DNA from: Planctomycetota bacterium
GTDB lineage: Bacteria > Planctomycetota > Phycisphaerae > SM23-33
DNA: 35,734 bases
Reading direction: 5' to 3'
Assembly: GCA_012729725.1 (NCBI GenBank)
Contig: JAAYCO010000154.1
Span: 1-35,734 of the forward strand
The notes under the pieces are model-generated. The model was not told the origin of the DNA. It made no database searches and saw only the letters and a list, made by a program, of their open reading frames with translations. This document shows, piece by piece, positions 3,690-22,765 of this stretch; the first letter of the stretch is position 1, and each line of letters starts with the position of its first letter. The position numbers and the translations under genes were made by a program.

Positions 3690-4919
3690 TCATACTGCCG
3701 CAAGGTGCATTCGCGGCACGAGTTCCACCTTGATCCATCCGGGCTGGCGCTCATCGAATGCTCTATAGGCTTCAAGCACCGAATCAAACGGTTCAACGTT
3801 TGAGATGTAGACTTCCGGATCGACCGCGCCGCTTTTGACCATCTCCATCAGCGTCGGTATGTACTTTCGGTGGTTGCAGTTGCCCATCTGGACGGTGATG
3901 TTGCGTTCCATCGCTGCCCCCAGCGGGAAGAACTGCGCGGTTTGAGGGTAAACGCCTATTATCGCAAGCGTGCCCGCCTTCGCCAGCGATTCAAGCGCCC
4001 AGATGATTGCCTGTGACGGCCCGTCGCCGGGCCTCCATGTTCCGTTCTGAGGATGAGTCTTGGGAGCAACCAGCTTGAGTTCCCGTTGGAACTCCTCTTC
4101 CATCTGGCGTGATTTTTCCGCAGCCGGGCCGCTATGAGCGTGAATCGCATCGATGCCCACGGCGTCTATCGAGCGATCAACACCAATGCCACCCGTCAGT
4201 TGCAGAATCGCCTCGACAGGATCATCCTCCTCAAAGTTCACCACTTCAGCGCCCTGATCACGCGCCATTTCCAGGCGCATCGGCACGCAATCGACCGCAA
4301 TCACTCGCCCCGCGCCAAGCAGCAACGCGCTGAGTATTGTGAACTGCCCCACGGGCCCGCACCCGAAGACGGCAACGGTATTGCCCGGCTCCACCTCGGC
4401 TATGTCGGCGCCGAAGTACCCGGTGGGGAAAATGTCGCTGAGCATGATGGCCTGATCGTCCGTCACCTCGTTGGGAATCTTGACCAGGCCGACGTTCGCA
4501 AAGGGCACTCTGGCTTTCTCGGCCTGCAACCCGTTTATCGCTCCGCTCTCGGCGGGCCCGCCGAAGAAGGCCGTGCCGGCTCGGGGACCGTTGGGGTTCG
4601 AGTTGTCGCACTGCGAGAAGTAGCCTGCCCGGCAGTAGCTGCAATATCCGCAGGCTATCGTGGGGCAGATAACAACCCGGTCGCCTTCCTTGACGTTCCG
4701 CAGCCCAGGCCCTGTCTTCTCGACAATGCCCACGCCCTCGTGCCCGATGATCGTTCCTTCCTTCATGCCGGGCATAGTCCCGCGAATGAAGTGGAGATCC
4801 GTGCCGCAGATCGCGCTTGCGGTCAGTCGGACGATTGCGTCATTGGATTCCTGAATCTTCGGCTCGGGCACTTCATCAAGCCTGATATCCCCGACGTCGT
4901 GAAAAACCACGGCCTTCAT
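3690..4919 (-). CDS. Zinc-dependent alcohol dehydrogenase (formaldehyde-dehydrogenase-like MDR)
   Basis: A 409-residue medium-chain dehydrogenase/reductase. Catalytic zinc ligands are visible as C38 (AICGTDLH) and H60-E61 (IIGHEG). The structural zinc loop carries C90, C93, C96 and C104 (CGYCSYCRAGYFSQC). The Rossmann motif is VAVFGCGPVGQ, near residue 190. The long insert after the cofactor domain and the total length resemble glutathione-independent formaldehyde dehydrogenase or threonine-dehydrogenase-like members rather than short ADHs. It would oxidise a small alcohol or aldehyde adduct with NAD(P). ATG 4919 is preferred because AAGGGG lies about 8 nt upstream and the protein then begins with the family-typical MKAVVFHDVG. 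It is divergent from the secreted unknown at 5056 and convergent with the zinc-ribbon protein. The exact substrate is uncertain. Confidence 0.87.
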   Translation of the reverse strand: MKAVVFHDVGDIRLDEVPEPKIQESNDAIVRLTASAICGTDLHFIRGTMPGMKEGTIIGHEGVGIVEKTGPGLRNVKEGDRVVICPTIACGYCSYCRAGYFSQCDNSNPNGPRAGTAFFGGPAESGAINGLQAEKARVPFANVGLVKIPNEVTDDQAIMLSDIFPTGYFGADIAEVEPGNTVAVFGCGPVGQFTILSALLLGAGRVIAVDCVPMRLEMARDQGAEVVNFEEDDPVEAILQLTGGIGVDRSIDAVGIDAIHAHSGPAAEKSRQMEEEFQRELKLVAPKTHPQNGTWRPGDGPSQAIIWALESLAKAGTLAIIGVYPQTAQFFPLGAAMERNITVQMGNCNHRKYIPTLMEMVKSGAVDPEVYISNVEPFDSVLEAYRAFDERQPGWIKVELVPRMHLAAV

Positions 4920-21695: not shown

Positions 21696-21733
21696 ACAGT
21701 GGAATAGGTGAACAGGAGGCCGCATGCGAGGCG

Positions 21734-21764
21734 CCGGCCGGGATAATCCCGGCCGGTGTTTTTT
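21734..21764 (+). terminator. Strong intrinsic terminator after the PEP-CTERM gene
   Basis: CCGGCCGGG and CCCGGCCGG form a 9-bp GC stem around ATAAT, followed by TGTTTTTT. It ends the transcript of the PEP-CTERM gene and isolates it from the palindromic element downstream. Confidence 0.9.
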
Positions 21765-21837
21765 GTATTCAAGACGACGGGGCTGTTGTATTCCCTGCCT
21801 CAAATCGGCAGAATGTTGTTATTCCGGCGGCAGGTCT

Positions 21838-21995
21838 AGAGCACTTTGCGTAGCTCCTGTCGCCATCTTCTGGTTGCGGCTGCGCACAGCGGCGTCCGGC
21901 TGCATCGACGATGCCAAGGCATCGCCTGCTTCGCCGTCCTTGCCATGCTGGCCTCACCGACGAAGAATGACGACAACCTTTACGCAAAGTGCTCT
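21838..21995. repeat. 158-bp palindromic, MITE-like element
   Basis: AGAGCACTTTGCGTA at 21838-21852 and its exact complement TACGCAAAGTGCTCT at 21981-21995 are 15-bp terminal inverted repeats. Complementarity continues imperfectly inward (TGTCG-CAT region). The exact centre (21916.5) is also the centre of a second perfect inverted repeat, CGATGCC-AA-GGCATCG. The whole 158-bp unit is therefore one symmetric hairpin. No open frame or transposase is inside, and no clear target duplication is visible. It ends 7 nt before the SD of the next gene. Together with the terminator it fills the 317-nt gap between the PEP-CTERM and 22013 genes. Confidence 0.75.
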
Positions 21996-22012
21996 TGCTT
22001 CAGAGGAAATGG

Positions 22013-22765
22013 ATGAAGATTACTAGCTTAATCAAATGGCTGCTTGGGTTGGGGTTGTTCGCCGTGCTGGTAATGGCGGGGGCGGTGTATCTGATGGCGT
22101 GCAAGGCCCCCTCGCAATACCGGCCGGAGCTTCTGGATGCCCCAGCCCGCGAAGCGGCCGCCAAGCGATTCGCCAAGAAGACGCTGGAGGAATTCGGCAA
22201 CCAGGCGCAGGGCAGCGAGTCGTTCAGCATTTCATTCAGCCAGCAGGAGATAAACGAGTATTTCGCTTCCGTTGACGAAATCGCCGCCCAGGCCCCCAAC
22301 GGCAGAAGCGGGCAGGTTCGCCAACTGCTTGCCGATGCGGGCATTTCGGCGCCGATGGTAGTGCTTAACGACGGCTTGATGACGATGATGGTTCATCTCG
22401 ACGAGCACGAGAAGATACTCTCGGTCGATATAGGAATGGTGCAGGAAGATGACGGCCGGCTGAGGCTGTCGCTCTGCGGCGCGCGGATCGGCGATCTGCC
22501 CGTTCCAGCGGGGATGGCTCAGGACGGCCTGGAGAGGATCCGCCATGGCCTTGATCAAGCCGGCGCCATGGACGAGCCCGCGCAGAGGCTCACCATCGAG
22601 CACGTCGCCCGCGGCCTCGCTACAGCGGTGCGAGCAATAGGGCGCGATCCGATAGACCTTTCTCTTCCTCTGCGGATCAATGGCAGGGGAGTCAGGATCA
22701 GCCGCATAGTGCTTGCCCCCGAGCAGCTTACGCTGCGATTTGTTCCTTTCGAAGCCGGCGAATGA
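22013..22765 (+). CDS. Membrane-anchored protein of unknown function
   Basis: A 250-residue protein. A single N-terminal helix (about 7-30, WLLGLGLFAVLVMAGAVYLMA) ends in a CKAPSQ context and is followed by a soluble, mixed alpha/beta domain facing outward or the periplasm. It loosely resembles YpmS/DUF2140-type proteins because of the N-terminal anchor and a FSQQEINEYF motif near residue 77, but this is a weak resemblance. ATG 22013 is supported by AGAGGA 5 nt upstream. The stop overlaps the start of the LigD-like gene (ATGA), so both are one transcription unit and probably coupled in translation. Function remains open. Confidence 0.7.
   Translation: MKITSLIKWLLGLGLFAVLVMAGAVYLMACKAPSQYRPELLDAPAREAAAKRFAKKTLEEFGNQAQGSESFSISFSQQEINEYFASVDEIAAQAPNGRSGQVRQLLADAGISAPMVVLNDGLMTMMVHLDEHEKILSVDIGMVQEDDGRLRLSLCGARIGDLPVPAGMAQDGLERIRHGLDQAGAMDEPAQRLTIEHVARGLATAVRAIGRDPIDLSLPLRINGRGVRISRIVLAPEQLTLRFVPFEAGE

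Follow-up and report, generated by a model that had tools for sequence, protein, structure and literature searches.

A palindromic repeat of Planctomycetota, probably a non-autonomous IS630-type MITE, with an interior conserved as structure

A palindrome of 158 bp, located in a window of 35,734 nucleotides (the whole stretch of DNA analysed here, contig C105 of a 3.2-Mb Planctomycetota genome assembled in 250 contigs), is best understood, with a probability of roughly 0.8, as a non-autonomous MITE of the IS630 type and as one copy of a family spread through the phylum, which would be mobilised in trans and in which the core may have a role of its own. We come to this reading because an IS630 element of the host displays the layout of the same class of ends, while in a relative an IS630 copy and a palindromic element share an identical outer 12 bp.

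The palindrome and its setting

The ends of the palindrome are exact, AGAGCACTTTGCGTA on the left being complementary to TACGCAAAGTGCTCT on the right over 15 bp, and an inner inverted repeat (CGATGCC at 21909-21915 with GGCATCG at 21918-21924) has the same centre, 21916.5, as the original prediction had stated and as the window sequence bears out. No other 15-bp inverted repeat with arms at most 200 bp apart is present in the window, and none appeared in 20 block shuffles. The 'perfect symmetry' put forward at the same time has to be qualified: it holds for the ends, and folding goes beyond chance, but elsewhere symmetry is partial, with a palindromic identity of 53% over the 158-bp unit. Folded as DNA, the unit reaches a z-score of -4.2 against shuffles; folded as RNA, it reaches -5.6 for the plus strand and -7.5, the best value, for the minus strand, each strand beating all its shuffles. 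Inspection of the sequence and of its reading frames gave no credible ORF within the unit, which no gene fits, in line with what had been claimed.

The coordinates of the features are collected in Table 1. A weak promoter-like match lies inside the element. The original prediction rightly placed it just upstream of the Shine-Dalgarno sequence belonging to the gene at 22013, and as the stem stops 7 bp short of that site, blocking of the latter is not a necessary consequence.

Table 1. Features in and around the palindromic element (positions in the window)
Feature	Position	Strand	Basis or remark
Intrinsic terminator of the upstream gene	21728..21762	+	Precedes the element, which occupies the leader of the following gene
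Left TA, putative target duplication (C-TA-G)	21837..21838	.	Sequence; TA on both sides usual in this end class
Left terminal inverted repeat AGAGCACTTTGCGTA	21838..21852	+	Sequence
Palindromic MITE-like element (GAGCACTTTGCG...CGCAAAGTGCTC)	21839..21994	- (strand with the conserved core motif)	4 host copies; 102 related elements compared
Conserved structured core (R1), its helices covarying around unpaired bases that are themselves conserved	21875..21959	-	86.2 bits, E 2.4e-20
Tip hairpin P3 (CGATGCC-AA-GGCATCG)	21909..21924	-	Sequence and length vary among copies, pairing kept
AAGGA of the core, unpaired or weakly paired	21937..21941	-	(Nearly) invariant columns of alignment A1; partner side GACG 21893-21896
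Right terminal inverted repeat AGAGCACTTTGCGTA	21981..21995	-	Sequence
Downstream gene, 250 aa, no Pfam match	22013..22765	+	Shine-Dalgarno AGAGGA 22002-22007, 7 bp past the element

Copies, borders and a candidate transposase

The host genome holds four close copies (96-98% identity over 158 bp), at unrelated sites and with paired ends in each, and three that are more diverged, so that R1, a covariance model built on the aligned cores, finds seven in the host altogether. Dispersed copies, which it had been proposed to look for, are thus present and the unit is not unique in its genome. BLAST against 100 relatives recovered diverged relatives of the element in 27 genomes, the middle of the unit being best conserved, and R1 has matches in 32 of 392 sampled genomes of the phylum. 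The exact core pattern was met in records named as Planctomycetota, in one Lentisphaerae bin and in one Thermoplasmatales bin. Related elements are nearly constant in length (about 150-165 bp) and share the core; other genomes contain up to about 50 copies, and matches to the ends, about 90 in each of two genomes, amount to tens of copies each. Contigs of several genomes, assembled from short reads, stop near copies of the element. Phage, plasmid and viral collections contained no match to it.

Several variants deserve to be recorded. In the bin Thermoplasmatales archaeon SW_10_69_26 the core is found in four contigs (L081, L091, L142 and L156), within longer palindromes devoid of the usual ends, as a result of either horizontal transfer or a binning error. 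The host itself has a second, diverged type of element with the variant core GGCGAACGAGGCATATCC (contigs C216, C56 and C192; L356-L358), of which two copies have different ends, GAGCCTGTATGATAAAC and GAGCCTGCATGAGAAC. Another small repeat (about CGGACAACCTCGGTTGCCTTGATCCGACAATGGCTGCGAAGCAGCC) is nested in an element arm at L198/L220, and also at L115 and L116, while a 52-bp derivative by internal deletion (L217, 1462-1514) retains both ends (GGCTCTGTCTGAAA...TTTTCAGACAGAGCC). Finally, on the minus strand of L093 (about 4640-4740), a truncated right half accompanied by a duplicated flank lies 2.2 kb from a full copy, which suggests recombination or gene conversion at the element.

When borders were compared over 102 related elements with clear ends, two classes could be distinguished. 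Class B, with ends such as GAGCA, GAGCGT or GGCTCT, is flanked by YTA and TAR, and includes the window copy, whose end class follows the pattern YTA-GAGCA...TGCTC-TAR (hyphens at the borders). TA is present on both sides in 78-90% of two class B end groups, it being understood that TA borders alone cannot tell a duplication from a TA fixed within the element. The border of the window copy is imperfect, with TA on its left side but TT (21995-21996) on its right, and its putative target duplication would be degenerate (TA/TT). Class A has ends such as GAGTGCC or GAGCGCC, and its largest group (GAGTGC) displays a 3-bp TNA duplication in 62% of cases, against 21% expected by re-pairing; a single genome, G310, shows TCA/TCA, TTA/TTA and TGA/TGA at different sites. 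Since this second class duplicates TNA, one and the same core goes with two types of ends or more. A search for empty sites with joined flanks among G474-G476 gave no clean one, orthologous sites there being only 71-76% identical. Apparent matches to the element in L277 and L278 were discarded as false positives of a loose pattern.

The sites chosen by class B offer a further lead, and a lead only, as the ORF calls behind the following counts are simple: 11 of 33 reconstructed targets coincide with the stop codon of a called ORF and, among sites outside ORFs, 11 of 26 fall at a stop codon compared with 29 of 185 control sites (p 0.003). Examples are found at L004, L065, L129 and L201; the G that opens a class B element makes TA into TAG, and the stop is regenerated.

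Transposases of the DDE_Tnp_1 and DDE_3 types were inspected for matching ends in five genomes. Contig C58 of the host carries an IS630-family element of 991 bp (DDE_3, Pfam E 4e-34) bordered as CTA-GAGCAGTTCACG...CGTGAACTGCTC-TAA, which is the layout of class B, and IS630 copies with comparable ends occur in G001, G021 and G035. In G001 the IS630 copy and the palindromic element both begin with GAGCAGTTCACG....GTAGC at the same spacing, their outer 12 bp being identical, and the end of another G001 element matches that of the host IS630 at 25 of 28 positions. Between the ends of the window copy and those of the host IS630, no more than 9 of the 12 outer positions agree, and at most 18 of 28, and its exact partner was not found among the IS630 ends compared. 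The transposase with matching ends which the original prediction suggested seeking thus exists, fully in this relative and partly in the host. The proposed mobilisation in trans by an IS630-type enzyme is, as judged from these ends, well supported for class B as a whole and likely for the window copy.

Other sources were considered. The copy-rich genomes G473 and G474 showed no intact IS with the ends of the element, all their end pairs being about 145 bp apart, and none of the DDE_Tnp_1 (IS4/IS5-type) transposons of G474, G475, G310 and the host has these ends. Where contigs end in short matches to the C-terminal part of a transposase, these resemble IS copies collapsed in assembly more than MITEs, and the loci fetched contained no convincing case of a core split around a gene. 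As for the transposons themselves, the IS630 copies of the host (C58, L314) and of G001 (C557, L355) have a run of at least seven A before the catalytic part, and in the host copy the frames before and after this run differ, as if by programmed frameshifting. One Y1_Tnp gene of the host (L194) is bordered, near its start and after its end, by AAAAGGGGTCAGGAACC repeats, which are also found at the borders of a DDE transposon in L293.

A core conserved as structure

Read on the minus strand of the window, the core as framed in alignment A1 is arm-GNC-AAGGA-(4 bp)-GAA-GCAGG-(hairpin)-YCGATGCA-(4 bp)-GACGNN-GNC-arm. Over 101 matches, standard pairs fill 93.0% of cells, against 66.6% after shuffling and 26-40% when partners are slid; the covariation score is 0.645 against 0.165 in the control, and all 25 core pairs show two-sided changes. 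While that alignment was fitted to model R1, alignment A1 was made independently and gives the same picture (91.9% against 73.5%). The sequence of the outer arms is wholly different between genomes, and the ends nonetheless pair. In A1 it is the bases without complementarity in the internal loops (AAGGA/GACG, GAA/A and the GA bulge) that vary least across the phylum, and this speaks for their recognition by something.

What is it that folds, DNA or RNA? Counted from fixed anchors that ignore pairing, 58 G-T stand against 51 A-C (p 0.57), helices P2 and P3 consist almost exclusively of Watson-Crick pairs, and outside one conserved G-U/G-C pair of the core there is no G-U excess; an excess noticed on the model-fitted alignment, which would have indicated selection at the RNA level, vanished with the pairing-blind anchors and was dropped. 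Strict Watson-Crick covariation lacking a G-U excess suggests a hairpin of DNA with a putative role of its own, or a symmetry maintained by exchange, and not selection on a regulatory RNA. One could see in it, instead, a structured RNA, the elements spreading a regulatory or catalytic domain that would be transcribed from the window minus strand and act on neighbouring transcripts. The strong covariation, the conserved unpaired bases and the G-U/G-C pair would suit such a domain, as would the motif strand folding better as RNA (z -7.5 against -5.6), but the equal frequency of G-T and A-C outside that pair, the strictness of P2 and P3, and a gene neighbour and orientation that are not constant among copies make it unlikely, as does Rfam, which gave only chance matches and no credible one, whether for the window or for eight related loci. 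The match to PtaRNA1 at the neighbouring terminator was likewise rejected as due to chance.

It might also be argued that the complementarity of the arms stems from template switching during replication, repair of quasi-palindromes creating covariation as a mutational by-product around a core devoid of function. Strict Watson-Crick changes with no G-U excess are what this process would leave. Moreover, in G473 copies of class A and class B have the same short tip hairpin TCCCCTGGGGA (L125 compared with L111 and L199), which suggests that cores were exchanged between elements with different ends, and exchange among copies of one genome fits such a process. Symmetrising repair would however erase the non-complementary bases of the internal loops, which are precisely the best conserved ones, and we consider this explanation improbable.

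Returning to a non-autonomous element of the IS630 type, we may propose how it would move. An IS630 transposase, provided in trans, would probably recognise the outer 12 bp together with, at 19-23 bp, an inner box (TGTCGT/GTAGC), and would insert the element at TA, with YTAR preferred. The core, with its short, variable helices set about unpaired bases that stay fixed, would fold as single-stranded DNA or as a cruciform and might aid mobility as a recognition or assembly structure, a role that may be the reason for its retention while the ends change. A bolder view, which we put forward tentatively and think somewhat less probable than its contrary, is that the core is a transferable module of folded DNA (or RNA), passed between MITEs with different ends; a single structural parasite would then exploit several unrelated transposases in Planctomycetota, in Lentisphaerae and possibly in archaea.

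Known repeats and the place of this family

Dispersed palindromes, known from Planctomycetes too, make up a different class, that of the GTAG/CGTC-tagged REPs and of the TIR repeats of RAYT and TIRYT genes. These units are 20-40 bp long, have an unpaired tag on one side, do not duplicate TA or TNA, and are associated either with Y1 transposases or with no transposase (PMC3733652). A REP or REPIN-type element moved by a Y1 (RAYT) transposase would likewise be palindromic, intergenic and multicopy, and the host has two Y1_Tnp genes. Yet the present element measures about 158-160 bp, its ends are GAGC...GCTC with no tagged unit of that kind (PMC3733652), the Y1_Tnp genes belong to contigs C117 and C127, in which R1 finds no match and no copy flanks them, and short target duplications indicate a DDE enzyme. 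Such an origin is therefore very improbable, and of the 'MITE or REP-type' alternative in the original prediction the second half has to be given up, while the first stands, with dispersed copies, inverted ends, TA or TNA borders, the lack of an ORF and an IS630 with matching ends. That ordinary intergenic DNA made a palindrome by chance, for which partial symmetry of the arms is the sole argument, is refuted by the copies at other host loci and across the phylum.

Bacterial MITEs that insert at TA are known, namely RUP of S. pneumoniae, for which IS630-Spn1 has been proposed as partner, Correia/NEMIS and ERIC (PMC2229807). Like the present element they have 100-200 bp, no transposase, inverted ends, TA termini and a long stem-loop, and are mostly intergenic; unlike it, each family keeps to one primary sequence over a narrow range of hosts. 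In the present family nearly every genome has arms and ends of its own, while pairing and a few unpaired bases are kept phylum-wide, and at least two types of border, TA and TNA, are used. With the IS630 family the element shares the outer 12 bp, the inner box and the YTA...TAR borders (partly for the host copy, fully for that of G001); it differs in having no transposase, and nothing comparable to its core is present in the terminal regions of those IS630 copies that were inspected.

A folded DNA strand in which the structure is conserved instead of the sequence, and in which extrahelical bases are fixed, is familiar from the attC sites of integrons. The comparison is one of analogy only: the element is conserved in the same manner, but no R'/R'' core sites, integrase or cassette context were seen. 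The literature searched contained no description of this family, which is weak evidence, many papers being outside its coverage.

TA-inserting MITEs and the link of RUP to IS630 were thus already known, and what is unusual here is an interior structure conserved throughout a phylum together with two border types or more. The usual definition of a bacterial MITE is based on its ends, and the interior is regarded as filler. In the present family the conserved part is the interior, as witnessed by covariation across the phylum, while the ends and the type of target change. The possible dependence of a MITE on a folded DNA structure, and a possible switch of transposase, become testable, and the genomes of Planctomycetota gain a class of repeats, sometimes abundant, that had been left unannotated.
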